Below, one piece after another: positions 19,284 through 59,480 of a stretch of DNA of 64,000 nucleotides. The DNA comes from Phytohabitans houttuyneae (lineage in GTDB: Bacteria > Actinomycetota > Actinomycetes > Mycobacteriales > Micromonosporaceae): NCBI RefSeq assembly GCF_011764425.1, contig NZ_BLPF01000002.1, forward strand, positions 620,997 to 684,996, given 5' to 3'. A program made the translations under genes and the position numbers. How positions within the stretch are numbered: the first letter of the stretch is position 1; the number at the start of each line of letters is the position of its first letter. The notes beneath the pieces are model-generated. The model searched no databases and was not told the origin of the DNA. It worked only from the letters and a program-made list of their open reading frames with translations.

Positions 19284-19287
19284 CGAA

Positions 19288-32691: not shown

Positions 32692-33630
32692 TCACGGCAC
32701 GAGCACGAGCTTGCCGCGTACCCGACCGGTCTGGCTCAGCCGGTGGCCCTCGGCGACCTCGCGCAGCGGCAATGTCTGTTCAATGTGGACCCTGACGAGG
32801 CCGCGGTCGGTGAGCTTGCCGAGTTCCTCGAGGTCGGCGGCGGAAGGAGCGACCTTGACGGTCTCGAAGCGGACACCCCGCCGTGCGGCGTCGTCCTCGG
32901 TCACGCCGGGGTGGTCCCAGATCGCGCTGACCAGCAGGCCGCCGGGCGCCAGCGTGTCGAGGGACCTGGCGCCGTAGGCGTCACCGATGTTGTCCAGCAC
33001 CACGTCGACGTCCCGCACGGCGTCGGTGAAGTCTTCGAGGGTGTGGTCGACAAGCTCGTCGGCGCCGAGGTCGCGCAGGAAGGGGTGGTTCGCGGTGCGG
33101 GCGGTGCCGATCACGTACGCGCCGCGGGCCTTGGCGATCTGGACGGCGACGTGGCCGACCCCGCCGGCCGCCGCGTGCACGAGGATCCGCTGGCCGGCGC
33201 CCACTTCGGCGATGCCGACCAGGGCCTGCCACGCGGTCAGCCCGACCGCGGACACGGCGGCCGCCTCGGCGTGCGACAGCGCGCGGGGCTTGGCGGCGAG
33301 GTCGGCGGCCGGTGCCCGCACATAGTCGGCGTACGGGCCGACGAATGGCGCCGGCATCCCGAAGACCTCGTCGCCCGGTCGAAAGCGGGTGACCCGGTCG
33401 CCGGCGGCCACGACGACGCCGGCGAGGTCGAAGCCGGGTGTGAAGGGCAGGGTCACCGGCAGCGCGGCCACGCCGGACCGGATCTTCCAGTCCGCCGGGT
33501 TGACGCTGGCCGCCCGCACCTCGACGAGCACGTCGGCCGGGCCGGCGACGGGCCGGGCGACCTGCGCGACCTCCAGCACCTCCGGGCCGCCGAAGTCGTG
33601 GAACCGGATCGCGTTCATGGTGGTTGACAT
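32692..33630 (-). CDS. Zinc-independent MDR-type quinone oxidoreductase
   Basis: A 312-residue medium-chain dehydrogenase/reductase of the quinone-oxidoreductase type, NADPH-dependent. GroES-like N-terminus (ADVLVEVRAASVNPADWKIR), then AAAGGVGHVAVQIAKARGA as the nucleotide motif; the zinc-ligand cysteines of alcohol dehydrogenases are absent. Start ATG 33630 or 33618. It diverges from an AraC-family regulator 99 bases away, which probably controls it. Convergent with the repeat protein, six bases apart. Confidence 0.85.
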   Translation of the reverse strand: MSTTMNAIRFHDFGGPEVLEVAQVARPVAGPADVLVEVRAASVNPADWKIRSGVAALPVTLPFTPGFDLAGVVVAAGDRVTRFRPGDEVFGMPAPFVGPYADYVRAPAADLAAKPRALSHAEAAAVSAVGLTAWQALVGIAEVGAGQRILVHAAAGGVGHVAVQIAKARGAYVIGTARTANHPFLRDLGADELVDHTLEDFTDAVRDVDVVLDNIGDAYGARSLDTLAPGGLLVSAIWDHPGVTEDDAARRGVRFETVKVAPSAADLEELGKLTDRGLVRVHIEQTLPLREVAEGHRLSQTGRVRGKLVLVP

Positions 33631-33729
33631 CGTTCGACCGTATGGCGCCTTCGTGAGACGTTCCAGCACAGTACGTCCGGGTTTTATTGCTGTGCGTCTC
33701 AGCGCCGAGATGTTCGTTACCATCACCTG

Positions 33730-34673: not shown

Positions 34674-35009
34674 ATGACCATCGTCAAGATCAATGCCATC
34701 ACCGTGCCGGCCGACAGCGGCGACGAGCTGGCACGCCGGTTCGCCGCGCGGGCCGGGGCCGTCGACGACCAGGACGGGTTCGAAGGCTTCGAGCTGCTCC
34801 GGCCGACAGACGAGCGGACGACCTGGCTCGTCGTCACCCGCTGGCGCGACGAGGAGGCGTTCCAGGCGTGGGTCAGCTCACCGGCGTTCGCCCACGGGCA
34901 CCGCTCGGCCGCCGAGCGCGGTGGCGACGCCCCGCCGCCACCGATCGGGGTGCACAGCGAGGTCTGGTCCTACGCGCCGGCCGGGGGATCGGGCCAGGCG
35001 CGGCCGTAA
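34674..35009 (+). CDS. MhuD/IsdG-like heme-degrading monooxygenase
   Basis: A 111-residue ABM-fold protein. Sequence and numbering follow mycobacterial MhuD: Asn7 in VKINAI, Arg22 in RRF, Trp66 in FQAW, and a histidine at 74 (two residues later another) in place of the heme-ligand His75. MhuD opens heme to release iron without producing CO. The match over the first 66 residues is strong, so heme degradation is a better call than a generic antibiotic-biosynthesis monooxygenase. No heme-uptake genes adjoin it. Confidence 0.8.
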   Translation: MTIVKINAITVPADSGDELARRFAARAGAVDDQDGFEGFELLRPTDERTTWLVVTRWRDEEAFQAWVSSPAFAHGHRSAAERGGDAPPPPIGVHSEVWSYAPAGGSGQARP

Positions 35010-35023
35010 GCGACAATGTCCGC

Positions 35024-36289
35024 GTGACCCGATCGCGTGCCGTAAACCCGCTGACCTGCCAGCTCGACGCGGTGGTGCGCCCGCCGGGTTCCAAGAGCAT
35101 CACCAACCGGGCACTACTGTGCGCCGCGCTCGCCCCGGGCCGGTCCACGCTGACGGGGGCGCTGTTCGCGGACGACACCCGGGCCATGACCGACGCGGTG
35201 GTCGCCCTGGGAGCGGCGGTCACGGCCGACCCCGACGCCCGCACCCTGGTGGTACGCGGCGGCGGCTCGCCGGCGCCGGACGCCGTGATCTTCGCGCGGC
35301 AGTCCGGCACGACCTCCCGTTTCGTCCTTCCCGCTGCGGCGCTGTTCGGCACGCGCACGGTCGTCGACGGAGCGCCGCAGCTGCGCGCCCGCCCGTTCGG
35401 CCCGGTCCTTGACGCGCTGCGGCAGCTCGGCGCCACCGTCGAGGAGCTCGCCGAGCCGGGCTTCCTGCCCGCCGCGGTCAGCGGCCCGATGCGTGGCGGG
35501 CCGGTGCGGGTCAGCGGCCACGTCTCCAGCCAGTTCCTGTCCGGCCTGCTGATGGCCGGACCGCTCATGCGTGACGGCCTCGAGGTCTCGGTGACCTCGG
35601 AGCTGGTGTCCGTGCCGTACGTGGAGATGACCAAGTCGGTGATGGCCGCGTTCGGTGTGAGCGTCGACGGGCTTTCGGTGCGGCCGGGAGGCTACCGGGC
35701 CCGCCACTACGACATCGAGCCCGATGCCAGCACCGCGTCGTACTTTCTGGGCGCGGCCGCCATCGCCGGCGGGCGGGTGACGGTCGACGGGCTCGGCACC
35801 GGCAGCCTGCAAGGGGACGTGCGGTTCGCCGACGTGCTGGAGCGGATGGGCGCCTCGGTGTCGCGGACCGCGGACTCGCTGACGGTCAGCTCGTCGGGCG
35901 CACTACGCGGTGTCGACGTCGACATGGCCGACATCTCGGACACGGCGCAGACGCTCGCGGCCGTCGCCGTCTTCGCCGACTCGCCGACCCGGGTGCGCGG
36001 CATCGGCTTCATCCGCGGCAAGGAGACCAACCGGGTGGCCGCGGTGGTGACCGAGCTGCGGCGGGCCGGCATCGACGCCACCGAAGACGAGGACGGCTTC
36101 ACGATCACGCCGGGCCTCCCGCGGCCGACCGCCTTCCAGACGTACGAGGACCACCGGATGGCGATGAGCCTGTCGCTGATCGGGTTGCGGGTGCCGGGCA
36201 CCGAGATCCTCGACCCGGGCTGCGTGGCCAAGACCTACCCGGACTTCTTCACCGATCTGGAATCGCTCGCCGCGCACGACAGGAGGTGA
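35024..36289 (+). CDS. aroA: 3-phosphoshikimate 1-carboxyvinyltransferase (EPSP synthase)
   Basis: A 421-residue shikimate-pathway enzyme joining shikimate-3-phosphate and PEP. Conserved PPGSKSITNRALL (Lys24), ARPFG, SSQFL, and KTYPDFF motifs are present. The catalytic Asp and Glu are in DISDTAQT and GKETNR. The PEP-site loop reads SGTTSRF where class I enzymes have AGTAMRP. No ribosome site precedes GTG 35024, and a GACAAT sequence just upstream suggests a leaderless transcript. The downstream small gene probably shares its transcript. Confidence 0.92.
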   Translation: MTRSRAVNPLTCQLDAVVRPPGSKSITNRALLCAALAPGRSTLTGALFADDTRAMTDAVVALGAAVTADPDARTLVVRGGGSPAPDAVIFARQSGTTSRFVLPAAALFGTRTVVDGAPQLRARPFGPVLDALRQLGATVEELAEPGFLPAAVSGPMRGGPVRVSGHVSSQFLSGLLMAGPLMRDGLEVSVTSELVSVPYVEMTKSVMAAFGVSVDGLSVRPGGYRARHYDIEPDASTASYFLGAAAIAGGRVTVDGLGTGSLQGDVRFADVLERMGASVSRTADSLTVSSSGALRGVDVDMADISDTAQTLAAVAVFADSPTRVRGIGFIRGKETNRVAAVVTELRRAGIDATEDEDGFTITPGLPRPTAFQTYEDHRMAMSLSLIGLRVPGTEILDPGCVAKTYPDFFTDLESLAAHDRR

Positions 36290-42351: not shown

Positions 42352-42470
42352 GGTTTAGCCGGCGGCCGCCGTGGGAAAGCAGCACGGTTGTCGAGCAACA
42401 TCTACATATTTAGATGGTTGCGTGTGCTCCTCGGTTGGGGGCCCTCATGGGCAGGGGAAGCGGACAGGGT

Positions 42471-43762
42471 ATGAGCCGGATCGCCGTGTGCTCGAGCGAC
42501 CAGCTGCGGCGTGACGCGCTGGCGGCCTACCTGAGCGGTCTACCCGACTTCAGCGTGGTCGGGCGGGTGGTCGACGGCCACCACCTCATCCCGCTGGTGG
42601 ACCTGGAGCGCCCACACATCGTCCTGATCGACGGGGAGCGAAGCCCGGGCCAGGCCGGACCCACCCTCCAGCAGGTACACGCCCGGCACCCGTCGGTCCG
42701 GCTCGTGCTGGTGTACGAAAAGCTCTCCGCGGAGGACCTCGCCGGCCTGCAGGCGACCGGCGTCGCAGCCGTGGTGCCGTACGCGCACGGCCTCGGCGGG
42801 CTGGTCTCGGTGCTGCGCGGGCTCGCCACCGGCCCCGTGCCCAACGGCAACGGGGTGGGGCTCACCGCCCGCCAGCGCGAGATCCTGCTGCTGGTCGCCT
42901 CCGGCCACCAGGTCAGCGAGATCGCCGCGATGCTGGACATCAGCCCGGGCACCGTGGAAAACCACAAGCGCCGGGTGTACGCGAAGCTGAGCGCGACAAG
43001 CGCCGCGCACGCCGTGGCCCGGGCCGCCTCGCTCGGCATCATCGACAGCACCTCGGCGCCGCAGCCCGCGCCCTCGGCGGAGAAGCGGCGCCCAGAAGGC
43101 GAACAGGCGCCGCTCGCCGTCGTGGTCGGCTACGCCAGCCCGGTGCTCGACCGGGTGGTCACCACGCTGATCCGGCACCAGCTCGCGGTCGTGCGCGAGC
43201 ACTGTCCACAGTCGGCACCGCAGGTCCACTGGGCGCGCTCGCACCGCGGGCCGGTGGTACGCGTGCTGGTCGACCCGACGGCTGAGCACTGGCGGGTCGG
43301 CGGCACGCTCGGCTGGTCCGCCGTCATGGTGCACGACGGCCGCGTCGACCGGCACGCCATGGGGAGGCGCTCACCAACGGCGTGCTCGCGCTGGTGCACG
43401 CCGACCACGTCGAGTCCCGCCTCATGCCCGCCATGCACCTGGCGGCCGGCGGCTACATGGTGATGGATCCGACCTCGTCCGAGCTGTTTACCGATCCGAT
43501 GTGGACCTGGCCGGCCGACCTGCCGCCGTTGGCGCCGCAGCTGACCGCGCGCGAGCACGACATCCTCCGGCAGATCGGGCGCAACCAGACCGTGCGGCAG
43601 ACCGCCCGCGTGCTCGGCATCGCGATGAAGACCGTGGAGAACGCGCAGGGCCACCTGTTCAGCAAGCTTGGCGTGCACAACCGGGCGGCGGCGCTCGCCA
43701 AGGCGTACGCGCTGGGCCTGCTGCAGCCCACCGACGCGGTGCCCGATCCGGGCCTGAGCTAG
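42471..43762 (+). pseudogene. Double receiver/LuxR-type regulator, one frameshift
   Basis: Two tandem receiver-like plus LuxR units. Unit 1: IAVCSSDQLRRDALAAYL with IVLIDGE, then helix-turn-helix LTARQREILLLVASGHQVSEIAAML. Unit 2: VVVGYASPVLDRVVTTLI with VVRVLVDP, then LTAREHDILRQIGRNQTVRQTARVL. The frame breaks in the four-G run at 43363-43366; one extra G restores about 430 residues. The receiver acidic pockets look degenerate. Start is ATG 42471 or upstream ATG 42447. It borders the unusual biosynthetic-looking locus and is the likely regulator. Its stop shares CTAG with the convergent methyltransferase. Confidence 0.75.
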
Positions 43763-44421
43763 GTGCGTGCGGTCACCACCACCCGGTCCCGCGGTCCGGA
43801 AAGGGGGCGGGTGTAGGTGAAGGTGGTGGACGAGACGTCGGCGAAGCCCGCCTCGCGGCACTGCTCGACGAGGTAGCCGGCCGAGAGCCAGTGTGCGGGG
43901 ATGCCGGGCGCCTGCTGCGCGTCCTGCCCCTGCTGGGTGCCGTCGTTGGAGATGACCAGCACGCCCGGGCCCGGTACCAGCCATCCGTGCAGGTGCTTGA
44001 GGACCGGGGCCAGGCTGCCCTCCGGGTCGTAGAGGTGTGCCATCAGCCCGTCGGCGTACACGACGCCCCAGCGGCCCTCCGGCGGCGACCACGAGCGGGC
44101 GTCGGCCACCTCGGCGGACAGGCCCTTGCGGCGGGCGATGTCGACCGCGCGCTGCAGGACGTCGACGGCGTGCACGTCGTAGCCGGCGCGGGCCACCTCG
44201 GCCTCCACGGTGGCGTTGCCGCAGCCGACGCTGAGCAGGGTCGGCGGGTCCGTCCGGTCCAGTACGCCGCACAGGTGGTCGACCATCCAGGCGCGGTAGG
44301 GTGCGCTGTACGTGGACGGGGTGACCGAGTCACCGTTTGCCGCACCGCCCTCCCAGATGTCGAAGAGGCTGAGATCCTCGTCGCAGAGGTAGAACCTCCA
44401 CAGCTGTTCGACGCTTGTCAC
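43759..44421 (-). CDS. Class I SAM-dependent methyltransferase
   Basis: A 220-residue methyltransferase. SAM-binding motif I TLLSVGCGNATVEAEVA (about 65-81), acidic motif II in YDVHAVDVLQRAVD, and a Rossmann-type C-terminus. GTG 44421 has GGAGG six bases upstream. The substrate is unknown; its position in the flavin-oxygenase/DHQD-SDH locus suggests O-, N- or C-methylation of a small aromatic or carboxylic product. Confidence 0.85.
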   Translation of the reverse strand: MTSVEQLWRFYLCDEDLSLFDIWEGGAANGDSVTPSTYSAPYRAWMVDHLCGVLDRTDPPTLLSVGCGNATVEAEVARAGYDVHAVDVLQRAVDIARRKGLSAEVADARSWSPPEGRWGVVYADGLMAHLYDPEGSLAPVLKHLHGWLVPGPGVLVISNDGTQQGQDAQQAPGIPAHWLSAGYLVEQCREAGFADVSSTTFTYTRPLSGPRDRVVVTART

Positions 44422-44787
44422 GATGGGCCTCCAAACGCGCTGATCGCCGAATTTGGACGGACTTAATGGCCGGGCCAGGTATAGATCGAGTCCACTGCGG
44501 CGTGGAAAGCGAATTGATCGGGCCGGCACGAAAAGCCGTTCACCGCAGCCTATGTGTGGTCGCCTTTAGCTGCCAATCCCCCGGGGGACCTCGCATATAC
44601 GGAACCCCCCGGGGTGGTGGAATTGGCGCTTATCTGTGGCTGCCGGCGGAATTTATCTGCTCCGGAGTTGCGGCTATTTCGGGCCCGTGATAGGCCAGAT
44701 TAGATGCGACGCGCGTTCGTGTGGACGGTGTTGCTCCGGCGCCCGTTGCAATTGCATCCGCCTATTTATTTTGAGGGAGGAATGGTC
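44422..44787. promoter_or_regulatory. Divergent promoter region with CCCCCGGGG motifs
   Basis: This 366-base gap is less GC-rich than neighbouring DNA. It contains the palindrome CCCCCGGGGG (44578-44587), a second site CCCCCGGGGTGGTG (44606-44619) and several TATA-like hexamers (for example TATAGA at about 44480). The second motif recurs at 47002-47015 before the DHQD/SDH gene. Candidate binding sites for the locus regulator. Confidence 0.45.
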
Positions 44788-46278
44788 GTGGTGACCACCC
44801 GCAGAAGCGTCGTCGGCTTCGGCATGCTCGGCTTGGCGATTGGCTACTTCGCCTGGTACACGCCCTACGCTGGGCTGACCAAGGCGCTCTCCAGCGGGTT
44901 GTTGCCCGGCATGGACTCGCGGGTGGGCGGCCTGGTGCTGCTGCCGGCCGCCGCGCTCGGCACGCTCGCCGGCTCGCTGATCTTCCTCAGCGTCTCCGGC
45001 TGGTGGCGGTACGCCGGGCGGGCAACGGTGGCCGGGCGCCAGACGATCCGGCCCGGGCCGGCCACCGTGACCGCCGGCCTGTTCATGGCACTGATCATCG
45101 CGACGACGACGCTCAACTACACGTTCGCCGGCGTCTCGATCCTGTTCATGCTGCTGATGATGCGCGGCGGCGTGCTGGTGCTCTCCCCGATCGTGGACGC
45201 CGCCCGCCGCCGCCCGGTCCGCGTGTACTCGTGGGTGGCACTCGGGCTCAGCCTGCTCGCGGTCGTCGCCGCGCTCTCCGATGTGGACAGCTACCACCTC
45301 GGCATCGCCGCGGTGGTCAGCCTGGGCATCTACCTGTTCGGCTACATCGGACGGTTCGAGATCATGAGCCGGGTCGCGAAGACCGGTGACCCGGCGATCG
45401 ACCGCCGGTACCTCGTGGAGGAGCAGCTGTCGGCGGCGCTGTGGCAGGTGGGCCTCTGCGCCGCGCTGGCGCTGATCGGGATCGGGCCGGTGCTCGGCGC
45501 GCTGCGCGAGGGGTTCACCTCGTTCCTGCTGACCCCCGCGGTGATCCCGGCGTTCGCGGTCGGCCTGCTGTACGAGGCGCTGTTCATCTTCGGCACGCTC
45601 ATCTACCTCGACCCGCGCGAGTACACCTGGTGCGTGCCGGCGAACCGCGTCGCCAGCCTGCTGTCCGGGCTGGTCGCCTCGTTCGGCCTCACCTGGCTGA
45701 CCGGCATCGCGGCGCCCGGCGCGGGCCAGCTCGTCGGCACCGCGTTCATCGTCGGGGCGGTGCTGGCGCTCAGCTATCCGGCACTGCGCCAAGCGGCCGC
45801 CCGCCGGTGGGCGTGGGCGCGGCGGCGCCGCGTGCTCTTCGTCTGCGGAGGCAACACCGGCCGGTCGGCGATGGCCGAGTCGATCGCCCGCGCCGACGGG
45901 GACGGCACGTGGAGCCCGCGCAGCGCCGGGCTCGCGCCGCGGATCTCCGGAGCCCCGATGGCGGCCGGCGCGACCGCAGCCCTCCGGCAGATCGGGGTAC
46001 CGCCCCGGCGGCACCGCACCCGGCAGCTCACCCGGCAGATGTGCCGCGACGCCGACGCGGTGTACTGCATGACCCGCGCCCAGCGCACGGCGGTCGAGCA
46101 GCTCGCGCCTGAGGCGCGGGGCCGCACGTTCTGCCTCGACCCGGAGCGGGACATCCCCGACCCGTCGGGCACCGCCGACAACGCGGCGTACGTGCGGACG
46201 GCCACCGTGCTGCGCGAACAGGTGCGCGCGCGGCTGCGCGAGAACGCGCCCCAGCTCCAGCCTCAGGCGGGTGGCTGA
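44788..46278 (+). CDS. Polytopic membrane protein fused to low-molecular-weight protein tyrosine phosphatase
   Basis: A 496-residue fusion. Residues 1-345 have about ten membrane spans in a DMT-transporter-like pattern (GMLGLAIGYFAWYTPY, TLNYTFAGVSILFMLLMMRGGVLVLSP). Residues 348-496 form an LMW-PTP domain: VLFVCGGNTGRSAMAESIAR gives the CX5R loop (Cys353, Arg359) and DIPDPSG supplies the general-acid aspartate (Asp455 or 458). GTG 44788 is seven bases after GAGGGAGG. The phosphatase faces the cytosol if the span count is even. It may dephosphorylate a regulator or a transported phosphate ester; both are speculation. Confidence 0.85.
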   Translation: MVTTRRSVVGFGMLGLAIGYFAWYTPYAGLTKALSSGLLPGMDSRVGGLVLLPAAALGTLAGSLIFLSVSGWWRYAGRATVAGRQTIRPGPATVTAGLFMALIIATTTLNYTFAGVSILFMLLMMRGGVLVLSPIVDAARRRPVRVYSWVALGLSLLAVVAALSDVDSYHLGIAAVVSLGIYLFGYIGRFEIMSRVAKTGDPAIDRRYLVEEQLSAALWQVGLCAALALIGIGPVLGALREGFTSFLLTPAVIPAFAVGLLYEALFIFGTLIYLDPREYTWCVPANRVASLLSGLVASFGLTWLTGIAAPGAGQLVGTAFIVGAVLALSYPALRQAAARRWAWARRRRVLFVCGGNTGRSAMAESIARADGDGTWSPRSAGLAPRISGAPMAAGATAALRQIGVPPRRHRTRQLTRQMCRDADAVYCMTRAQRTAVEQLAPEARGRTFCLDPERDIPDPSGTADNAAYVRTATVLREQVRARLRENAPQLQPQAGG

Positions 46279-46952
46279 TCATGCCAGGTGACGTAGTCGC
46301 ACAGCGGGGCCCGCTCCGGTACGAAACCGTTGACACCCGCCGCCGGGTCCGGATATCCGGTGGCCAGACCGCAGACGATCAGGCGGCCGGCGAGGCCCAG
46401 CGCGTCGCGCAGCACGTCCGGGTAGCCGGCGACGCTGTACTGCGGGCAGCTGCCCAAGCCGCAGGCGACAAGCCCGAGCATTGTGTTCTGCACGAAGAAG
46501 CCCATCTCCAGGAACGTGCCGGGCGCGGCGTCGGCGGGCAGGTGGAAGACCAGCGTCGCCGGCGCGCCGTGGAAATCGAGGTTGGCTCGCAGGTGCGCCC
46601 GGCGCCCGGCCGGATCGTCGCGGGCGATGCCCATCGCGGCGAGGATGCCGGCGCCGAAGGCCCCGGCCCGTCGCCTCGTCACCTCGTCCACGGTGGACGG
46701 CTGGTTGGGATAGTCCGGGTGCGGCGGGACGCCCCGGTCGAACTCGGCACGCAGCCGCCGGCCCAGCGCGTCCCGGCACGCGCCGGTCACCACGGCGACC
46801 CGCCACGGCTGCCCGTTGCGGGTGGACGGCGCGTGTCCGGCCGCGGTGAGGACCCGTTCGAGCACCTCACGCGGCACCGGTCGGTCGAGGAAGGCGCGCT
46901 TGCAGTGCCGCGCGGTGGCGATCGCGGCGAACCCGGACCAGTTGTCGTCCAC
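46263..46952 (-). CDS. Nitroreductase-family flavoprotein
   Basis: A 229-residue FMN-dependent nitroreductase: N-terminal ARHCKRAFLDRPVP (FMN phosphate contact region), HAPSTRNGQPWRVAVV, and GLGSCPQYSVAGYPDVLRDALGL near the C-terminus. Such enzymes reduce nitro groups or quinones, or act as dehydrogenases on heterocycles. It overlaps the phosphatase fusion gene tail-to-tail by 16 bases and is divergent from the DHQD/SDH gene with only 68 bases between. Confidence 0.85.
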   Translation of the reverse strand: MDDNWSGFAAIATARHCKRAFLDRPVPREVLERVLTAAGHAPSTRNGQPWRVAVVTGACRDALGRRLRAEFDRGVPPHPDYPNQPSTVDEVTRRRAGAFGAGILAAMGIARDDPAGRRAHLRANLDFHGAPATLVFHLPADAAPGTFLEMGFFVQNTMLGLVACGLGSCPQYSVAGYPDVLRDALGLAGRLIVCGLATGYPDPAAGVNGFVPERAPLCDYVTWHDQPPA

Positions 46953-47020
46953 AGCCTGGGAAGTCTGCGCGGCCGCGGCTGCCGTGTCGAGACGCCAAAT
47001 ACCCCCGGGGTGGTGCCCTC

Positions 47021-48478
47021 ATGACCGAGATGACCGCGACGCTGACCCGCCGGCGGGATCTGTCCACAGTGCCCGAAGGCGTCACGCGGCTGGAGGTGCG
47101 CGCCGACCTGCTGGGCGACCTCGACCCGGCGATGCTGCGCCGGGCGTTCGGCGGCCGGCTGGTGTACACGCTTCGCAGCCGCGCGCACGGCGGCCAGTGC
47201 GCCGACCCGCCGGCGGCCCGGCGGATCCGCCTGGCGGCGGCGGCACTCGGGTACGACACGGTGGACCTGGAGGCGGACCACGACCTCGTACCCGACGTGC
47301 TGGCCGCGGTGCCCGCCTCACGGCGGCGGATCTCCTGGCACGGGCCGACAATGCCCTTGGCAGCACTGCGCGAGCGGTTCGCCGGCATGGCGGCCGTGCC
47401 GGCGGCCGGCTACCTGCTCGCACCGGGGACCCGGTCCTCCGCGGACGCGTTGGTGCCGTTGCGAGTGCTGGCCGAGCTTGGCCGGGACGACGTCACCGCC
47501 TACGGCACCGGCCCGTTCGGCGCCTGGAGCCGCCTGCTCGCACCGTGGCTCGGCGCGCCGACCATCGCGGGGCGCCTCGACGAGGACGGCAGCGGCAGCG
47601 GCGCGCCCGACGTGGCCCGGCTCTGCGCCGACTACCCGCTCCCGGCCCGGCCGCCGGTGCGGGAGCTGTACGGGCTGATCGGCCCGGTGGCGCTCGGGTC
47701 CGGCTTTCCCGGGCTGCACAACCGGGCCTACCGCGAGCACGGCATCCCGGCCCTTTACCTGCCGTTTCACCTGGCCGGGCTCGGCGACTTCCTCACCGGC
47801 TTCTGGCCCGCCGTCCCGCAAGGGCTGCGGGAGCTCGGCCTGCCACTGCGCGGACTGACGGTCAGCGGGCCGCTCAAGGAGGTGGCGCTGCACGTCGCGG
47901 ACGTCGTCAGCCCGGTGAGCCGGGCCGCCGGCGCGGCCAACGCCCTCACCCGGCGCGGCGGTCGCTGGCGGGCGGCGACGACCGACATGTCCGCGGTCGG
48001 GGCGGCATTGCGGTCGGCCGGCGTACCGCTCGCCGGACGCGCGGCCGCGGTCGTCGGCTGCGGCGGGGCCGGCCGGGCCGCCGCCGTGGCGCTGTGCGAC
48101 GCGGGCGCGGCGGTGACGATGGTCAACCGCGGCCGGACCCGCGGCCGGCTCGCCGCCGACCTGCTGAGACTGCCGTTCACGCCGCTGGAGAGCTTCCGCC
48201 CGACAGGATCGATGGTCGTCGTGCACGCCACGTCCGTACACACCGGACTGCCGTTTCCGCTGGACGGACTCAGCTCCGGCTCCGCCGTGCTGGACATGGT
48301 CTGCCCGCCGGACGGGTTGAGCGCGCTCGTCACGGCCGCGCGCCGGCGAGGGCTGCGCGTGGTCGACGGCCGGCGGGTGCTCGCCGTCGAGGCGGAACAC
48401 CAGTTTCGGCTCATGACCGGCCGTTCAATGCCCAAGACCCCGGAGATGGTGACACATGACAGCCTCGGCACTCCATGA
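47021..48478 (+). CDS. Fused dehydroquinate dehydratase-like/shikimate dehydrogenase-like protein
   Basis: A 485-residue protein with the same domain order as plant DHQD-SDH. Residues 1-205 resemble type I dehydroquinate dehydratase (RLEVRADLL, His107 in SWHGPTMP), but the Schiff-base lysine expected around 130 is replaced (PAAGYLLAPG). Residues 215-480 are an SDH-like Rossmann enzyme with VSGPLKE (Lys286), GAANAL (Asn307), TTDMSAVG (Asp322) and GCGGAGRA (347-354). The shikimate-binding S-x-S of the N-terminal loop is replaced by GSGFP. It probably acts on a related carbocycle, or only its reductase half is active. Confidence 0.8.
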   Translation: MTEMTATLTRRRDLSTVPEGVTRLEVRADLLGDLDPAMLRRAFGGRLVYTLRSRAHGGQCADPPAARRIRLAAAALGYDTVDLEADHDLVPDVLAAVPASRRRISWHGPTMPLAALRERFAGMAAVPAAGYLLAPGTRSSADALVPLRVLAELGRDDVTAYGTGPFGAWSRLLAPWLGAPTIAGRLDEDGSGSGAPDVARLCADYPLPARPPVRELYGLIGPVALGSGFPGLHNRAYREHGIPALYLPFHLAGLGDFLTGFWPAVPQGLRELGLPLRGLTVSGPLKEVALHVADVVSPVSRAAGAANALTRRGGRWRAATTDMSAVGAALRSAGVPLAGRAAAVVGCGGAGRAAAVALCDAGAAVTMVNRGRTRGRLAADLLRLPFTPLESFRPTGSMVVVHATSVHTGLPFPLDGLSSGSAVLDMVCPPDGLSALVTAARRRGLRVVDGRRVLAVEAEHQFRLMTGRSMPKTPEMVTHDSLGTP

Positions 48479-49271
48479 CGGACGGTCCGTCCTGGACCAC
48501 GCCGCGCTGCTCGGCGTGTGGCGCAACACCGACGCCGGCGCCGGCGGAGTGCGCCGGATGGTCCTCACCGAGCGCGGCGGCGGGCTGCGCCTGCGGCTGC
48601 TCGGCGCGGGGCGGCACAAACCCTACGACTGGGGCGAGATCGAGGCGCGGGCGTACACGACCGCGCCGGGCTCGCCGTCCGCCTGGGCGTTCACGGCCGT
48701 GCACGACACCGGGCTGCGCGGCCTGCGGCTGTGCGCGTACTCCCGGGGTGGGCTGCTGGTGGTCACCACCTACCAGGCGTTCAGCGGCCCGGGCTGGCCG
48801 TCGCCGTACTGGACCCGGGAGTTCTTCCACCGCGACGACTCGGCGGCCCCCGCGCCGGACGGCGAGCCGGCCGGCCAGTACGGCACGGCGCTGCCCACCT
48901 CGGCGCCGCTCGGGCCGTGGCAGCTCGACCCGACCGCCCTGGTGGGCATGTGGCACAACGTCGACCCGGCCGCCACCCGCCTGGCCCGGGTCCTGCTCCG
49001 CGAGCGGGACGGCTACCTCGCGGTGCGTCCCCACGGCGTCTGGGCACCACGCCGCCACGACTGGCACGAGACCGTCGGCAGCGCGTACGCCGGCGACGTG
49101 CGCGACACCGCCGCCGTGGCGTTCACCGCCTTCTTCGAGCTCGCCGCCGGGCGGGTGGACATGGTCGGGTACCTCGACCGCCGGCTGCTCACCATCGAGA
49201 CCGCCAGCACCCTCACCGACGGCGGCGGCCGCTATCCCTTCTATGTCCGCGAACACTTCTACCCGAGCTGA
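48456..49271 (+). CDS. Two-repeat WRN/DWGE protein A, unknown function
   Basis: A 271-residue protein made of two homologous units (about 14-125 and 155-270). Each opens with L-x-G-x-W-(R/H)-N-x-D, continues with a V-L-x-E-R-x-G strand and a DW(G/H)E turn, and ends in a Y-x-R-E-(F/H)-F segment. The pattern of alternating strands suggests a beta-barrel (lipocalin-like) fold. No signal peptide. The start overlaps the DHQD/SDH gene by 23 bases, so they are co-translated. I do not recognise the family. Confidence 0.75.
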   Translation: MTASALHDGRSVLDHAALLGVWRNTDAGAGGVRRMVLTERGGGLRLRLLGAGRHKPYDWGEIEARAYTTAPGSPSAWAFTAVHDTGLRGLRLCAYSRGGLLVVTTYQAFSGPGWPSPYWTREFFHRDDSAAPAPDGEPAGQYGTALPTSAPLGPWQLDPTALVGMWHNVDPAATRLARVLLRERDGYLAVRPHGVWAPRRHDWHETVGSAYAGDVRDTAAVAFTAFFELAAGRVDMVGYLDRRLLTIETASTLTDGGGRYPFYVREHFYPS

Positions 49272-49277
49272 GGGACC

Positions 49278-50473
49278 ATGAGCGTCGAATTCGAGACACG
49301 CTTGACCGGCGCGGCAGCGGTACGCCGCGCCGCCGACCTGGCCCGTGACCGGTTCGCCGGACGGGCCGCCGGGTACGACCGTGACGCGCTGTTCCCGGCC
49401 GCCGACCTGGAGGACCTGTTCGCCGCCGGGCTGCTCGCACCGACGGTGCCGGTCGAGCACGGCGGCCTCGGCCTCGGACCGCGGCGCGGCGACACGCACG
49501 CGCTGTGGGAGATGACCCGCGAGCTGGCCCGGGTCGACCTCTCCCTGGCCCGCTGCTGGGAGGGGCACGCGAACGCGCTCGTGCTCCTCGACGCGTTCGC
49601 CGTGGGGGAGCAGCGGGAGCGGTGGTTCGACGGTGTCGTGCGGCGGGGGAGAAGTGGGTGGCCTGGAGCGGCGAGCCGCAGGCCGCCAAGCCCGGAGAGG
49701 CCCGCCGTTTCGGCACCACGCTCACCCGTACCGAGGACGGCTGGGTCGTCGACGGCACCAAGGCCTTCGCGACAAGCGCGACCGGCGCGGACTGGGCGGT
49801 CCTGCTGGTCAGCCTCGCCGGACCGGGCGGCGCCCGGCACGCGGCGGCGCCGGAGAGCGTGCTGCTGCTCGGCTGCGACCTGCGGCATCCCTCGGTCACT
49901 GTGGACACGTCGTGGTGGGACCCGGTCGGCATGCGGGCCACGGCCAGCCACGTGGTCCGCTTCGACCGGACGCCGGTGCCCGCGGCCTGGCAGCTCGGCC
50001 AGCCCGGCGACTACGTGCGCCAGAGCTGGCAGGCCGCGTTCATCCCGCACTACGCGGCGAGCTTCCTCGGCGCGGCCGAGGGGGCGTACGACTACGCGAT
50101 CCAGTACGTGGAGAAGCAGGACAAGGGCGGCGACCCGTACGTGCAGCAGCGGGTCGGCAGCATGGCCGTCGACCTGGACACCGCCCGGCTGTGGCTGCGG
50201 CACGTGGCCCGGCTGTGGGACACCGGGCGCATCGACGAGGCCCGCATCGCCGGCAGCCGAGCCCGGCACGTGGTCGAGCACCTCGCGCTGTCCACCGTGG
50301 ACCACTGCATCCGGGCCTGCGGCGCGCGCTCGCTCGTCCGGCCCAGCCCGGTCGAGCGGATCCTGCGCGACCTGACCTTCTACGTACGGCATGACAACGA
50401 CGACCACCTCCTGGCCACGATCGGCCGCGCGGCCCTGGGACGCGAACATGACGCCTCTTTCTTCAAGCCCTGA
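49278..50473 (+). pseudogene. Acyl-CoA-dehydrogenase-fold flavin monooxygenase/dehydrogenase, one frameshift
   Basis: Begins MSVEFETRLTG after GAGGGA. The first frame covers the N-terminal helical domain (EHGGLGLGP) up to the five-G run at 49645-49649. Coding continues in another frame with EKWVAWSGEP, GWVVDGTKAFATSATGADWAV and a C-terminal helical bundle to SFFKP. One added G gives 398 residues. Adjacent to a flavin reductase, it resembles two-component group D monooxygenases (DszC-like) as much as true acyl-CoA dehydrogenases. Substrate unknown. Confidence 0.75.
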
Positions 50474-51017
50474 GGCGCGGGTCGGCGGCGCGCGAGAGCT
50501 GATCGGCACGGCGCCGCCGGTGGACCGCTTCCGCGACCTCATGGCTGCCTGGCCCACCGGGGTGGCGGTGGTCACCGGCACGGACGGGGCACGGCCGCTC
50601 GGTTGTACCGTCACCGCGCTCACCTCCGTGTCGGTGGACCCGCCGCTGCTGCTCGTCTCGCTCGCCACGGGCAGCCGCACGCTTGCCGCGGTACAGCGGA
50701 ACGGGCGGTTCGGTGTCTGCGTGCTGTCGGCGGCGCAGCACCACCTGGCCCGCGCGTTCGCCGCGGGCGAGCCGACCGCCCGGTTCGACGGGGTGCCGTT
50801 CCGCTGGAACCTCGGAGTGCCGCTCCTGCAGGGGACAGCCACCGGCGCCGTCTGCGTGGTCGGCAGAACGGTCACTGTCGCCGACCACGTGCTGGTGCTC
50901 GGACGGCCGATGTGGCTGGCCGGCGACCCGGGCATCGATCCGGTTATCTGGTACCGCCGGGAGGCGCACGCGCTCGCCGGGATCCGTGCGGACGCGGCCA
51001 CCCCCGGGGGGTTCTGA
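50448..51017 (+). CDS. Flavin reductase (FMN reductase-like domain)
   Basis: A 189-residue flavin reductase of the NADH:FMN oxidoreductase type: FRDLMAAWPTGVAVVTG, GCTVTALTSVSVDPPLLLVSLA, and FGVCVLSAAQHHLARAF are family hallmarks. ATG 50448 overlaps the 3' end of the acyl-CoA-dehydrogenase-like gene by 26 bases, strong evidence for a two-component flavin-dependent oxygenase pair. It supplies reduced flavin to that partner. Confidence 0.88.
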   Translation: MTPLSSSPEARVGGARELIGTAPPVDRFRDLMAAWPTGVAVVTGTDGARPLGCTVTALTSVSVDPPLLLVSLATGSRTLAAVQRNGRFGVCVLSAAQHHLARAFAAGEPTARFDGVPFRWNLGVPLLQGTATGAVCVVGRTVTVADHVLVLGRPMWLAGDPGIDPVIWYRREAHALAGIRADAATPGGF

Positions 51018-51085
51018 CCAGTCGGGTCACCAGCCGGGTCCACCTAGCATGACATTGAACTCCAACAATCAGTTTGGGGAATCGC

Positions 51086-52051
51086 ATGACCACCACAGGT
51101 ACGACCGCCAAGTATCTCCGCGAGATCGACCGGCTCCCGGACGGCGGACCGGCACGGGTCGCGCCGATCGACACGCGAGCGCTGATCGGCACGTGGCGCA
51201 ATGCCAACCACCAGACGTGGGGAATCTCCACGGTGGAGCTGACCGAGCGCGACGGCCAGGTGTGGGCACACGCCTGGGCCGTCGACCCGCACACCGGCCG
51301 GACACGCGACTGGGGCGAGGTGCTGGTCGACGGCCTGTACGCGCTCGGGCCGACGTCGAACGACGTGTGTGGCTACCGGGCCACGTTCGAGCTGGGCCAC
51401 GCCCGCACGCAGATCCAGGCGAACATGCTGCACAGCGTGATGGTGTGCGGTGCGTTCACCACCTTCACCGATGGCAGCGGGCGAGCGGACTACTTCTCGC
51501 GGGAGTTCCTGCACCGGCGCGGGCCGCAGTCCACGATGGATACTCCCGCGGACGGCATCGCGGACCAGGAAACGCGCGACGGTATCGGCTACGCCCGCGG
51601 CGACGACCGGCTGCCCATGCTCCGGGCGCCGATAGTCCCGGACCGCCTGCTCACCCGGTGGCGCAACACCGATGCGGGCACCACGGGCATCTCCGAGGTC
51701 GAGCTCCACCTGCGCGACGGGCAGACCCACCTGCGGGTCACCGCGGTCGGTCCGGACGGCTCCATCGACTGGGGCGACGCCCCGGTGCGGCTCTACACCG
51801 ACATCAGCGTGACCGGGGGAGGGCGCTCGGCCGCCGATCCGACGGTCGACGGGCGGCCGACACCGCACTACGCCGACGTTTCCGCGACTGATGGTGGACC
51901 GGCTCTGTTCGCCACGTTCGACCACGGCTTCATGCGGGTGCACATGCAGGCGCGGTTCAACATAGGCATCCTGCCATTCGTGATGTTCAACGAGTTTTCG
52001 GACGACAGCGGCCGGCAGGACTACTTCCAGCGGGAGGTTTTCGTCCGGTAA
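51086..52051 (+). CDS. Two-repeat WRN/DWGE protein B, unknown function
   Basis: A 321-residue paralogue of protein A with two units (about 30-150 and 190-321). Unit starts read LIGTWRNANHQTWGISTVELTERDG and LLTRWRNTDAGTTGISEVELHLRDG; both have a DWG(E/D) turn, an ATFELGH/ATFDHGF strand, and end YFSREFL/YFQREVF after a D-x-S-G-R loop. GGGGA is six bases before ATG 51086. Four copies of one unit in two genes of one locus imply a specific role in its chemistry; fold and ligand unknown. Confidence 0.75.
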   Translation: MTTTGTTAKYLREIDRLPDGGPARVAPIDTRALIGTWRNANHQTWGISTVELTERDGQVWAHAWAVDPHTGRTRDWGEVLVDGLYALGPTSNDVCGYRATFELGHARTQIQANMLHSVMVCGAFTTFTDGSGRADYFSREFLHRRGPQSTMDTPADGIADQETRDGIGYARGDDRLPMLRAPIVPDRLLTRWRNTDAGTTGISEVELHLRDGQTHLRVTAVGPDGSIDWGDAPVRLYTDISVTGGGRSAADPTVDGRPTPHYADVSATDGGPALFATFDHGFMRVHMQARFNIGILPFVMFNEFSDDSGRQDYFQREVFVR

Positions 52052-52074
52052 CGACGGGGTATTGTCTACTGTGG

Positions 52075-52099
52075 ACTGCCCGACGACATGTCGGGCAGT
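52075..52099. promoter_or_regulatory. Inverted repeat upstream of the multicopper oxidase
   Basis: ACTGCCCGAC (52075-52084) and GTCGGGCAGT (52090-52099) are exact inverted repeats with a five-base loop, 24 bases after the stop of protein B and about 140 before the oxidase start. It could terminate the upstream operon (no T-tract) or be an operator for the oxidase gene. Confidence 0.5.
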
Positions 52100-52237
52100 T
52101 CGCCATGTCTCCAGTTTGGACACTCGTTCCACCACCAAGGGATTCCCGTCTGTTTGGCCACGGTCTCAATCTGTCAATAGGTGGTTGCCTAAATTGGACG
52201 ACCGGCTCCGCCCAAGGAGCCGAGAAAGGTGGGCAGA

Positions 52238-54436
52238 ATGCAACCACCACAGAGGACGGTCGAGAGAAGACCCGCGGTGGGCGGCGCCCGCGCGCTGCTC
52301 GTCGCGATTCTCCTGACCGTCGGCACAGCCGCCGTATGGCTGGTCCTCCCACCAGACGTGCTCGGCGGCGGTGACCCGTCGGGCGTACGGCAGATCGGTG
52401 TCGCCGCACTCGTCGTAGCGCCGTTGGCCCTGCTGGCCGTCGGTGCCATGGCGTGGCTGGCGCGGCGGCAGGGCTGGCACGACCGCGGTCCCCGCCGGCT
52501 GCTGGTCCAAGCGGCTGTCGCGGCCGGATTGTTCACCGCGCTCGTGCTGGCCACCGCGCCCCTGCAGCAGATGGCCTCGCAACGGCTGGCCCAGGGGCCC
52601 CTCGCGCCCAACCTCGCCGCGGTCGGCTACGACACGTCCTGCTCGGCGATGTTCAACGCCGCCGAGTGCCGTGAGTACCTCGCGGACTACGGCAACCTGG
52701 ACGCGGCGAGCCTCGCCCGGGTGCATCACGCGATGATGCGGGAGACCGACCACTCGCCGGCCGAGCACGCGGCGATCACCGCACCCTTCGACCCGCGGCA
52801 GGACGCCGCCCTCGGACCTGACGCGATGGCCTTCGCCATCCAGGACTCGTTCGTGGTGTTCCTGTTCGCACTACCGCTCACCGCAGGTGGGCTCTTCCTG
52901 ACCGTCCGCCTGGCACCCTCCGCCGTGGTGCCGGCACGACAGCGCCGTACCCGCCTGGTGCGGGTGCGCACGCGCTGGGCCGCCGCCGGGGTCGCCGTGC
53001 TGGTGGCCGTGGTCGGCAACTTCGTACTCTCCTCGGCCGCCACAGCGCAGGCGGTCGTGCCGTTCAGCGTGCCGCTGCGCATCCCGCCGGTACTGCAGGG
53101 ATCGCAGGTGACCATCCAGATGCGCCAGGCCGACGTGCAGATCATGCCGACCGGCCCACCAACTCGCATGTGGACCTACAACGGGATATTCCCCGGCCCG
53201 ACGATCCGGCGGCCCTCCGGCCAGACCAGCCGGATCACCTTCCGCAACGACCTGCCGGCGAACTTCGGCCAGGCGACCATCCACCACCACGGCAGCCACT
53301 CACGGCCCAGTGAGGACGGCCAGCCCGACGACTTCCTCATCCCCCGGGGCAGGCAACGCACGTACGTGTACGAGCACATGGAGCGCGGCGAGCCAGAGTG
53401 GGCCGTCACGCAGTGGTATCACGACCACCGGATGGACGTGACCGGACGCAACGTCTGGAACGGACTGGCCGGCCTGTTCATCCTCGACGACGCCTTCGAC
53501 TCCGCGCTGCCGCTGCCGAAGGGTGAGTTCGACATACCCCTGGTCATCGCCGACCGCACCTTCGACGCCAACAACCAGATCCCCTACAACTTCAGCATCG
53601 TCGGCACGCTGGGCGACACGTGGCTGGTCAACGGCCGGCCGCAGCCGTACTTCCACGTCGGCGACCGCAAGTACCGGGTCCGCATCCTCAACGCGGCCAA
53701 CCGGCGACCGCTCGTGCTGGGTCTGAGCAACGGCGCTCCGATCACCCAGATCGGCACCGACGCCGGCCTGCTGCCGGCACCGGTGCAGCGCACGTCGATC
53801 ATCGTGCAGCCGGCCGAGCGGGTGGAGGTCGTACTCGACTTCGCGGGCCTGCTGGGTCAGAACCTGCTGCTGATGGACACCAACACCCCGGCGACGCCGG
53901 GCAACCCACCGAAGGAGCTCATGCAGTTCCGGGTCAGCCGTGACCTCAGGGAGACCAGCTCGGTGCCGGCGTCACTGCGCCCGGTACCGGTGTTCCCGGC
54001 ACCGTCCAAGGACCGGTCGTTCGTGCTCCGCGCGACCACCGACGCCGCCGGTGTCCCCACACAGTGGACGATCAACGGTCAGCCGTTCCAGTCCGGCCGG
54101 ATCGACGCCGACCCGGTGCTGAACTCGACCGAGCGGTGGAACTTCTTCAACGACTCACCGCAGCCACACGCCATCCACCTGCACGACGTCGACTGGAGGC
54201 TGGTGCGGCGGTTCCAGCTTGCCTTCGACGCGGGCGGCAACCCAGTGCCGGGAGCCGAGCTGCCCATCCAGCCGGCCGAGGCGGGGCTGAAGGAGACCTT
54301 CCTGATCCCGCCGCAGACCGGGTTCTCCGTCCTGACCACCTTCACCGATCACGTCGGTCCGTACATGTTCCACTGCCACATGCTGGAGCATGAGGACATG
54401 GCGATGATGGCGACCTTCAACGTGCGAGCCGCCTGA
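52238..54436 (+). CDS. Multicopper oxidase with N-terminal membrane domain
   Basis: A 732-residue protein. Residues 1-270 contain about five membrane spans (ALLVAILLTVGTAAVWLVL, QIGVAALVVAPLALLAVGAMAWL, and others) with a loop bearing two cysteines. The remainder is a three-domain laccase/bilirubin-oxidase-like enzyme with all copper motifs: TIHHHGSH, WYHDHRMD, HAIHLHDVDW and HCHMLEHEDMAMM, so type 1, 2 and 3 sites are intact. It can couple one-electron oxidation of phenols, aminophenols or metals to oxygen reduction. ATG 52238 follows AAGGTGG. Probably the last enzyme of the locus. Confidence 0.9.
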   Translation: MQPPQRTVERRPAVGGARALLVAILLTVGTAAVWLVLPPDVLGGGDPSGVRQIGVAALVVAPLALLAVGAMAWLARRQGWHDRGPRRLLVQAAVAAGLFTALVLATAPLQQMASQRLAQGPLAPNLAAVGYDTSCSAMFNAAECREYLADYGNLDAASLARVHHAMMRETDHSPAEHAAITAPFDPRQDAALGPDAMAFAIQDSFVVFLFALPLTAGGLFLTVRLAPSAVVPARQRRTRLVRVRTRWAAAGVAVLVAVVGNFVLSSAATAQAVVPFSVPLRIPPVLQGSQVTIQMRQADVQIMPTGPPTRMWTYNGIFPGPTIRRPSGQTSRITFRNDLPANFGQATIHHHGSHSRPSEDGQPDDFLIPRGRQRTYVYEHMERGEPEWAVTQWYHDHRMDVTGRNVWNGLAGLFILDDAFDSALPLPKGEFDIPLVIADRTFDANNQIPYNFSIVGTLGDTWLVNGRPQPYFHVGDRKYRVRILNAANRRPLVLGLSNGAPITQIGTDAGLLPAPVQRTSIIVQPAERVEVVLDFAGLLGQNLLLMDTNTPATPGNPPKELMQFRVSRDLRETSSVPASLRPVPVFPAPSKDRSFVLRATTDAAGVPTQWTINGQPFQSGRIDADPVLNSTERWNFFNDSPQPHAIHLHDVDWRLVRRFQLAFDAGGNPVPGAELPIQPAEAGLKETFLIPPQTGFSVLTTFTDHVGPYMFHCHMLEHEDMAMMATFNVRAA

Positions 54437-54445
54437 GCGCACTCC

Positions 54446-54477
54446 GGGAAGGGCACCTGTGGCAGGGTGCCCTTCCC
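54446..54477 (+). terminator. Hairpin terminator after the multicopper oxidase
   Basis: GGGAAGGGCACC (54446-54457) and GGTGCCCTTCCC (54466-54477) form a perfect 12-bp stem with an eight-base loop, ten bases past the oxidase stop and before the convergent small membrane-protein gene. No T-tract; probably serves both genes. Confidence 0.7.
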
Positions 54478-58325: not shown

Positions 58326-59480
58326 ATGGCACTGACGTTCCACTGGTTTCTGCCCACAAACGGTGACAGCCGCGACGTCGTCGGCGGCGGCCATGGTGTG
58401 CCCACGGGCCGCGCCGGCGGCGCCCGCCCGCCGTCGGTCGCGTACCTCGGCCAGATCGCCCGCTCCGCCGAGCAGTTGGGCTTCGAAGGCGCGCTGACGC
58501 CTACGGGTGCGTGGTGCGAGGACGCGTGGCTGACCACCGCGATGCTGGCGCCGGTGACCGAACGGCTGAAGTTTCTCGTGGCGTTCCGCCCGGGTTTGTT
58601 GTCGCCGACCCTCGCGGCGCAGATGGCCGCGACCTACCAGCGGCTGTCGGGTGGGCGGCTGCTGCTCAACGTGGTCACCGGCGGCGAGTCGCGAGAGCAG
58701 CGCGGCTACGGTGACTTTCTCGACAAGGACGACCGCTACGCCCGCACCGACGAGTTCCTCCACATCGTCCGGTCACTGTGGAGCGGCGAGGAAGTGACCC
58801 ACGACGGCGAGCACCTGCGGGTGGAGCAGGCCCGCCTCACGAACCCGCCGGACCCGCTGCCGCCGGTCTACTTCGGAGGCTCGTCGCGGGCGGCCGGTCC
58901 GGTGGCGGCCCGCCACAGCGACGTGTACCTCACCTGGGGTGAGCCTCCCGGCCAGGTCGCGGAGAAGCTCGCCTGGATCCGCGGGCTCGCCCAGCGGGCC
59001 GGCCGCGAACTGCGCTACGGCATCCGCCTGCACGTCATCTCCCGGGACACGAGCGAGGAGGCGTGGGCGCAGGCGCGGCGCCTGCTCGCCGGGATCAGCG
59101 AGAGTGACATCCGCGCGGTGCAGGAAGGCCTGGCCCGCAGCGAGTCCGAGGGGCAGAAGCGGATGCTCGCCCTGCACGGCGGGCAGCGCGACTCCCTCGA
59201 GATCTCGCCCAACCTCTGGGCCGGAGTCGGCCTCGTCCGCGGCGGCGCCGGCACCGCGCTCGTGGGCAGCCACACCGAGGTCGCCGACCGCATCACCGAA
59301 TACCACGCGCTGGGCCTGACCGAGTTCATCCTTTCCGGCTATCCGCACCTGGAGGAGGCGTACTGGTTCGGCGAGGGCGTCCTGCCGATCCTCGCGGCGC
59401 GCGGCCTGTGGCGGCATCCGGACGGCACCCAACCGGTGGCGGAAGCGCGCATCCCGTTCGCCGGCGTGGGCCGGACCTAG
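58326..59480 (+). CDS. ssuD: FMNH2-dependent alkanesulfonate monooxygenase
   Basis: A 384-residue bacterial-luciferase-fold enzyme that oxidises alkanesulfonates to aldehyde and sulfite using reduced flavin. Features typical of SsuD: FHWFLPTNGDSR start, GALTPTGAWCEDAW, LKFLVAFRPGLLSPTLAAQMAATYQRLSGGRLLLNVVTGG, and a C-terminal HPHLEEAYWFGEGVLP-type end. AGGAGG precedes the ATG. No SsuABC transporter or SsuE reductase adjoins; DUF4395 is directly upstream. Confidence 0.88.
   Translation: MALTFHWFLPTNGDSRDVVGGGHGVPTGRAGGARPPSVAYLGQIARSAEQLGFEGALTPTGAWCEDAWLTTAMLAPVTERLKFLVAFRPGLLSPTLAAQMAATYQRLSGGRLLLNVVTGGESREQRGYGDFLDKDDRYARTDEFLHIVRSLWSGEEVTHDGEHLRVEQARLTNPPDPLPPVYFGGSSRAAGPVAARHSDVYLTWGEPPGQVAEKLAWIRGLAQRAGRELRYGIRLHVISRDTSEEAWAQARRLLAGISESDIRAVQEGLARSESEGQKRMLALHGGQRDSLEISPNLWAGVGLVRGGAGTALVGSHTEVADRITEYHALGLTEFILSGYPHLEEAYWFGEGVLPILAARGLWRHPDGTQPVAEARIPFAGVGRT

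Follow-up and report, generated by a model that had tools for sequence, protein, structure and literature searches.

Conserved pairing of an acyl-CoA-dehydrogenase-fold flavoenzyme with a lysine-depleted DHQD/SDH-like fusion in a candidate specialised-metabolite locus of Phytohabitans houttuyneae

What, if anything, is made by a gene set that is rich in redox enzymes and free of the domains of polyketide synthases (PKS) and nonribosomal peptide synthetases (NRPS)? Such a set, of ten genes, occupies positions 42471-54436 of the 64,000-nucleotide stretch of Phytohabitans houttuyneae DNA analysed here (the window; contig NZ_BLPF01000002.1, positions 620,997 to 684,996, in a genome of 11.3 Mb). 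The original prediction, drawn from the letters of the window, had listed ten gene types and read them as a specialised-metabolism locus without PKS or NRPS. Open reading frames and Pfam matches bear out all ten (Table 1), and a Pfam scan of the ten reading frames showed no ketosynthase, adenylation, condensation or carrier domain. On balance we propose that the locus is a specialised-metabolite cluster, unclassified and outside the PKS and NRPS kinds, the core of which is an acyl-CoA-dehydrogenase (ACAD)-fold flavoenzyme together with a redox protein built on the scaffold of 3-dehydroquinate dehydratase and shikimate dehydrogenase (DHQD-SDH), and that it probably makes a small molecule.

The gene set is conserved as a unit

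When sought in other actinobacteria, the gene neighbourhood proved to be conserved as a unit, recurring in order in one genome and as subsets in other families. All of its genes are present in G031, a second species of Phytohabitans, and follow one another in identical order; amino-acid identities are 65-86%, with 56% over the opening 100 residues of the oxidase. In a blastn comparison of the cluster and its flanks with 54 kb around the G031 locus the match was confined to window positions 42,424-54,412, and the flanks, 20.4 kb upstream and 9.5 kb downstream, gave no match. Window genes found no match in the 20-kb piece upstream of the G031 locus, nor in the first 5.7 kb of the locus piece itself. 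A window regulator of the Streptomyces antibiotic regulatory protein type, encoded outside the cluster at 6144-9179, is 38% like the regulator that follows the G031 cluster, the family being a common one.

Beyond the genus the set is found in part. Another genus of Micromonosporaceae (G054, contig WHTQ01000050.1) holds eight members within 11 kb and in a different order, namely the regulator, membrane-phosphatase, nitroreductase, ACAD, flavin reductase, methyltransferase, fusion and one two-barrel protein, with an intervening sulfotransferase and cytochrome P450 (the P450 read by eye); the multicopper oxidase was not seen in this locus, the contig of which ends 1.5 kb before the regulator. G560, a match at class level, has the membrane-phosphatase, a short nitroreductase, the fusion, two single-barrel genes and the ACAD within 5.5 kb. 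In five genomes of a further family (f3) the fusion and ACAD genes lie about 30 bases apart, a PepSY_TM gene stands directly upstream of the fusion (intact in four, a remnant in G947; Pfam-tested in one), and genes for proteins of the major facilitator superfamily (MFS) and ChrB_N type are close by (PepSY, MFS and ChrB of G565 matched by eye). As the f3 loci are without barrels, methyltransferase, nitroreductase and oxidase, these components are not essential to the function of the core. The compact f3 arrangement of PepSY_TM, fusion, ACAD, MFS and ChrB_N, in which the SDH catalytic Asp has become Asn, perhaps reflects a different use of the same pair. Near one f3 locus (4379-5775) there are also TrpF- and TrpC-like genes, the latter confirmed by Pfam and the former read by eye.

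The ACAD and the fusion are co-located in all nine actinobacterial loci found (G000, which is the window, G031, G054, G560, G565, G897, G947, G958 and G1025), spanning three families and six genera; each of these loci came up in a search with a single kind of query (barrel, fusion or ACAD), and no search required both ACAD and fusion. Counting the window genome each time, barrel proteins matched in 3 of 200 family genomes, 2 of 6 genus genomes and 2 of 394 class genomes, the fusion in 3 of 394 class genomes, and the ACAD in 6 of 397 order genomes (E ≤ 1e-90) and 1 of 396 at phylum level, the last being the window genome itself. Within the genus of G560 the ACAD matched in 1 of 150 genomes (E ≤ 1e-100), which was G560. 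These searches are samples with cut-offs of 1e-5 for barrels, 1e-40 for the fusion and 1e-90 or 1e-100 for the ACAD, so that weaker relatives are uncounted, and every match falls in a locus of the ACAD and fusion kind. Genome contigs searched with a single barrel protein gave no relative among 34 stretches and, with a three-row barrel profile, one relative, the G054 contig; among 49 pattern-matching stretches of viral contigs compared with an ACAD profile there was no relative.

The relatives extend to Cyanobacteriota, where the survey covered plasmids only. Of 72,556 plasmid records, two matched the barrel proteins, those of Nostoc sp. UHCC 0926 and Gloeothece verrucosa PCC 7822, and the ACAD search matched the same two. 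Gloeothece carries in succession, within 8 kb, four single-barrel genes, a short-chain dehydrogenase/reductase, a methyltransferase, the ACAD, an FMN reductase and a multicopper oxidase. Its ACAD is 54% identical to that of the window set; the methyltransferase is 71% identical to that of the window in G031, 55% in G054 and 39% in Gloeothece. The Nostoc ACAD (55%) comes directly after an ABC operon of the iron-siderophore type. On Nostoc plasmid pn1 the barrel pair stands, within 10000-19400 of the stretch read, beside octopine-dehydrogenase-like, oxoanion ABC transporter and nitrogenase-cofactor-like genes (read partly by eye).

The core enzymes and the paired barrels

The fusion aligns with Arabidopsis DHQD-SDH across both domains (residues 20-472, E 1.6e-25). 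With 2gpt as reference, the position of the Schiff-base Lys is held by Leu in eight of the nine loci, including the window, and by Val in the ninth; the DHQD half contains no Lys at all in six loci, the window again included, and a single one in the other three, compared with 15 in Arabidopsis over the same stretch. The DHQD-site His is retained except in G054 (read by eye). Lacking the Schiff-base Lys, the DHQD half is unable to work by the known mechanism, and a working bifunctional DHQD/SDH was rejected as a candidate, the residue being missing in 9/9 loci.

In the SDH half the catalytic Lys is retained in all nine loci, and the catalytic Asp in the window, G031 (by eye), G054 and G560. A pocket Gln, which we take to be the shikimate-contacting residue 578 of Arabidopsis, is replaced by Glu in these four and by Asp in the five f3 loci and is thus acidic in 9/9. 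A further change, confined to the three Micromonosporaceae copies, puts Phe or Leu in place of the second Ser of the carboxylate clamp. To judge from these residues, the SDH half probably acts on a substrate other than the usual one, and the shikimate-type carbocycle product originally envisaged is weakened both by the loss of the DHQD Lys and by the altered SDH pocket.

The ACAD was compared with solved structures through its G031 copy, which has the full-length fold (best match PDB 5z8t, E 6.9e-29, residues 13-384 of 392). The nearest solved relatives are 5z8t/5gj7, followed by ordinary ACADs and then by MsuC and DszC, and the best NCBIfam model is SfnB (86 bits, cut-off 431). Ten copies, the broken window copy being left out of the comparison, are mutually 51-99% identical and form a group of their own. 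At the position of the dehydrogenase catalytic Glu, alignment with 8i4p places Asp367, and a His-Asp faces the His-Asn of 5z8t in a comparison that was read by eye and is ambiguous. A flavin reductase gene is present in four loci (window, G031, G054 and Gloeothece, where it is annotated as FMN reductase), whereas none was seen at the G560, f3 and Nostoc loci; its presence in those four favours oxygenation as the reaction that the ACAD might carry out.

The second component that recurs is a family of barrel proteins. The two repeat proteins of the window contain, as had been noticed at the outset, the same domain four times between them; the six pairwise comparisons of these domains score 9.2-22.8 standard deviations above 500 shuffles each. 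Only three residues, W, N and R, are invariant across 17 such domains, which come from six genomes. No Pfam match was found in 10 barrel proteins tested, the Pfam scan of the 17 single domains gave one match at chance level (E 0.19), and the one domain tested against NCBIfam gave none. A search of the barrel profile against the PDB found no convincing relative, with two matches at E 0.47 and 0.74 and, in another search, three at 0.93-1.1, and the profile of 17 domains recovered no avidin chain among PDB sequences at E ≤ 10.

A structural relationship is suggested by prediction. AlphaFold on six domain sequences gave a single-domain model of eight antiparallel strands (mean pLDDT 72); a two-domain model was poor (mean pLDDT 58). 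Foldseek with the one-domain model listed lipocalins and avidins, the top row being a lipocalin and bradavidin reaching a probability of 0.99, with none at E ≤ 0.001 and likewise none at that threshold against viral models. Upon structural realignment of the one-domain model avidins take most of the 50 rows, with Z from 8.4 to 7.2 (best avidin: Z 8.4, rmsd 3.2, 102 aligned residues), and designed barrels nearly equal them (8ah9 at Z 8.3, another at 7.7), a level of similarity rated as common. The two-domain model reached Z 10.4 against avidins, with 8.1 for the best non-avidin row, at its lower model confidence (pLDDT 58). A GxWxN stretch with the conserved W in strand 1 and an Arg in the last strand resemble what we take to be the avidin/calycin signature. 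We describe the repeat as a predicted eight-stranded calycin-like (avidin/lipocalin-like) barrel and do not call it an avidin.

In all six genomes the barrels come as pairs, one or two per genome, whose members are not identical; in G031 one member of a pair is cut at its start. A tree of the domains joins the halves of window protein 1 to two single-barrel genes that lie side by side in G560 (supports 83 and 88) and divides the domains of cyanobacteria into groups A and B (79 and 100); alignment and tree left out the cut first half of G031 protein 1, and some other supports are low (43-71). This pairing suggests a heterodimer whose partners are fused in Micromonosporaceae. The barrel proteins look like ligand-binding or catalytic parts, in line with the role first assigned to the repeats, which the structure model supports.

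Gene inventory and surroundings

Table 1. The ten genes of the cluster, with positions in the window
Gene product (Pfam family)	Position	Strand	Remark
Double LuxR-type regulator with two helix-turn-helix regions (GerE/LuxR)	42471..43762	+	frameshift near 43360
Class I S-adenosylmethionine-dependent methyltransferase (Methyltransf_23)	43759..44421	-
Membrane domain (~9 hydrophobic segments) fused to low-molecular-weight phosphatase (LMWPc)	44782..46278	+
Nitroreductase-family flavoprotein (Nitroreductase)	46263..46952	-
DHQD/SDH-like fusion (DHquinase_I + Shikimate_dh_N)	47021..48478	+
Two-barrel protein 1 (no Pfam family)	48456..49271	+
ACAD-fold flavoenzyme (Acyl-CoA_dh_N)	49278..50473	+	frameshift near 49640
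Flavin reductase, StyB/HsaB/HpaC-like (Flavin_Reduct)	50391..51017	+	alternative start 50520 possible
Two-barrel protein 2 (no Pfam family)	51086..52051	+
Multicopper oxidase, ~5 N-terminal hydrophobic segments (Cu-oxidase domains)	52229..54436	+

Gene calls outside annotated records are scripted or mechanical open reading frames. Many of the genes had been said to overlap at their ends, which is true at 46263-46278 and 48456-48478 and is in part an effect of the frameshifts. As the methyltransferase and nitroreductase genes are on the minus strand, the gene set is not a single operon. Through its frameshift the regulator reads as two open reading frames, 42471-43463 and 43382-43762, and the ACAD has its N-terminal part in the frame of 49278 and the remainder in that of 49658. 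Both frameshifts adjoin runs of G, and in G031 the regulator and ACAD are each one uninterrupted frame, as is the ACAD in G054, where the two regulator matches share one frame; sequencing insertions or deletions are probably responsible, being the simplest cause. The fusion copy of G031 and the nitroreductase copy of G560 are likewise broken or short.

The membrane-phosphatase protein, found also in G031, G054 and G560, has an invariant CX5RS motif (read by eye). Its identity as an arsenate reductase was considered and is weak, arsC models scoring 18.5-20.8 bits and Wzb 46.6, all under cut-off. Three copper-site motifs of the multicopper oxidase were matched by pattern, and its Cys-containing copper motif was read by eye, the search pattern for it having given no match. 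Its best model is PhsA, an o-aminophenol oxidase (224 bits, cut-off 950), followed by CueO (199.5, cut-off 525). The oxidative coupling originally predicted depends on this enzyme, whose PhsA-like score would fit such a reaction; among the loci found the oxidase accompanies the set in the window and the sister species G031 only, the one in Gloeothece being 33% identical, which narrows the proposal to those two.

Several neighbours of the cluster deserve mention. At 34674-36289, 6-8 kb upstream, an ABM monooxygenase gene is followed by a gene for 5-enolpyruvylshikimate-3-phosphate (EPSP) synthase, the two being unmatched in the G031 flank; membership of the EPSP synthase (35.0-36.3 kb) in the cluster is unsupported, the DNA match to G031 beginning only at 42.42 kb. 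A predicted tRNA-Thr (cgt) lies at 33614-33712 within a long open frame of the opposite strand, its gene of 99 bases being long for such a tRNA. At 58326-59480 there is a luciferase-like monooxygenase gene without a counterpart in the G031 pieces compared, and a luciferase-like gene also occurs near the Gloeothece locus.

Proposed function, alternatives and known systems

The reactions that the cluster might carry out, their order and its product are matters that we infer from gene content. The core would be the ACAD beside the fusion, to which some loci add one or two pairs of calycin-like barrels. The SDH half, which in the window keeps its catalytic Lys and Asp and its NADP fold, may reduce or oxidise a polar ring or keto substrate other than 3-dehydroshikimate, and the dead DHQD half may have become a binding or docking domain. 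Supplied with reduced flavin by the flavin reductase, the ACAD would then oxygenate the product of the SDH half, and the barrel pair, acting as a heterodimer, could hold a labile intermediate or shape its conversion. Methyltransferase, nitroreductase and multicopper oxidase would serve as tailoring enzymes, the membrane-phosphatase protein might export the product, perhaps with removal of phosphate, and the double LuxR protein would turn the gene set on.

A bolder version of this proposal, which we offer tentatively and rate well below it, holds that the loci stand for an undescribed class of natural product common to Actinomycetota and Cyanobacteriota. The ACAD would pass its product to a heterodimer of calycin-like barrels acting as cyclase or carrier, and the DHQD-SDH scaffold, with its Lys-stripped DHQD as binding domain, would have been added in actinobacteria.

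A number of observations weigh against a specialised-metabolite cluster with this core. The f3 loci keep of the set only the fusion and the ACAD, accompanied by PepSY_TM, MFS and ChrB_N, and in all five the SDH catalytic Asp is Asn. The plasmid collection yielded no fusion gene at E ≤ 1e-20, hence none at the cyanobacterial loci as far as plasmids go, and in Nostoc about 243 kb of the plasmid separate the two barrel genes from the ACAD. The Asp at the ACAD catalytic Glu position in one alignment may mean that the enzyme is still a dehydrogenase, and the frameshifts of the window may reflect decay. Neither a product nor a characterised homologue acting on the same substrate nor a resistance gene was recognised. 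Finally, some Fur- and IdeR-like sites favour a role in metal acquisition.

That role is the foremost of the alternatives, albeit an unlikely one. Here the core would make a chelator of iron or another metal, exported by the MFS or membrane protein, taken up by a FecBCDE-type ABC system and released by the PepSY_TM reductase. FecB-type binding proteins, permeases and an ATPase adjoin the ACAD locus in three of eleven loci (G897, G947 and Nostoc), and in the f3 loci a PepSY_TM gene immediately precedes the fusion, whereas in the stretches read by eye a Fec-type transporter was not seen in the window or beside G031, G054, G560, G565, G958 and G1025. The metal boxes are similarly divided. In a box scan an IdeR-like site precedes fecB of G897, another, with 5 mismatches, is found roughly 100 bases upstream of the G031 regulator (one seen against none in 8 shuffles), and the Gloeothece region has six Fur-like sites against 1.0 expected, one of which (14897 of its piece, 4 mismatches) is about 100 bases before the first of the four barrel genes. 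Yet the window itself (41.5-55.5 kb) has no IdeR, Zur or Fur-like site, no metal box precedes the fusion in the other actinobacterial regions (14 regions scanned), and the expectations come from only 8 shuffles of 7 regions.

Somewhat less probable again is an operon that degrades or detoxifies an aromatic, quinate-like or organosulfur compound. It would explain why SfnB heads the NCBIfam matches of the ACAD and why MsuC and DszC, flavin monooxygenases of sulfur compounds, are among its PDB relatives, and the flavin reductase matches StyB, HsaB and HpaC and the MFS gene of the f3 loci would agree with it. None of the SfnB, StyB, HsaB and HpaC matches attains its curated cut-off, however, no ring-cleavage or CoA-ligase domain is found among the Pfam matches of the ten reading frames, and the methyltransferase, double LuxR protein, PhsA-like oxidase and barrel pairs are ill-suited to a degradation operon. 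A chance run of independent housekeeping genes, which would draw on how common nitroreductases, methyltransferases and multicopper oxidases are singly, is highly improbable and was rejected: the order is kept in G031 amid unrelated flanking DNA, ACAD and fusion are together in 9/9 loci, the ACAD is rare (6/397 order genomes), and the fusion is unlikely to be housekeeping since the genome carries two further SDH genes elsewhere.

We return to the specialised-metabolite cluster as the reading to be set against known systems. Biosynthetic clusters of non-PKS/NRPS kinds are already known, and for the paired barrel family the searched libraries gave no match; the open-access literature gave no description of the gene set, a weak negative in view of that scope. 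Cluster finders keyed to PKS, NRPS or other known cores are expected to miss an ACAD and barrel core, for which the ACAD and fusion pair provides a sequence handle to locate more loci. As the barrel family is without a Pfam match and paired in two phyla, its ligand is open to direct search.

The barrels are predicted to have eight antiparallel strands, as avidins and lipocalins do, and avidins are prominent in the structural realignment; on the other side, designed barrels score as high, the profile recovered no avidin chain at E ≤ 10, and the barrels match no Pfam family and form non-identical pairs. DynF is a small eight-stranded barrel of unconfirmed role in the dynemicin cluster of an actinomycete (PMC8725005), and in this it is like the predicted barrels described here. 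DynF differs in belonging to an enediyne cluster, and no PDB chain so named was among the barrel-profile matches.

The ACAD has the fold of the flavin monooxygenases DszC, MsuC and SfnB and of PDB 5z8t/5gj7 and, in four loci, a flavin reductase gene nearby, but it scores far under all NCBIfam cut-offs and forms a separate group. The fusion, for its part, resembles the plant and bacterial bifunctional DHQD/SDH enzymes (PDB 2gpt, 2o7s) in its two domains, in their order and in the retained SDH Lys, and departs from them at the Schiff-base Lys, the pocket Gln and the second clamp Ser. Its Lys-less DHQD domain offers a natural test case for reuse of the shikimate scaffold.

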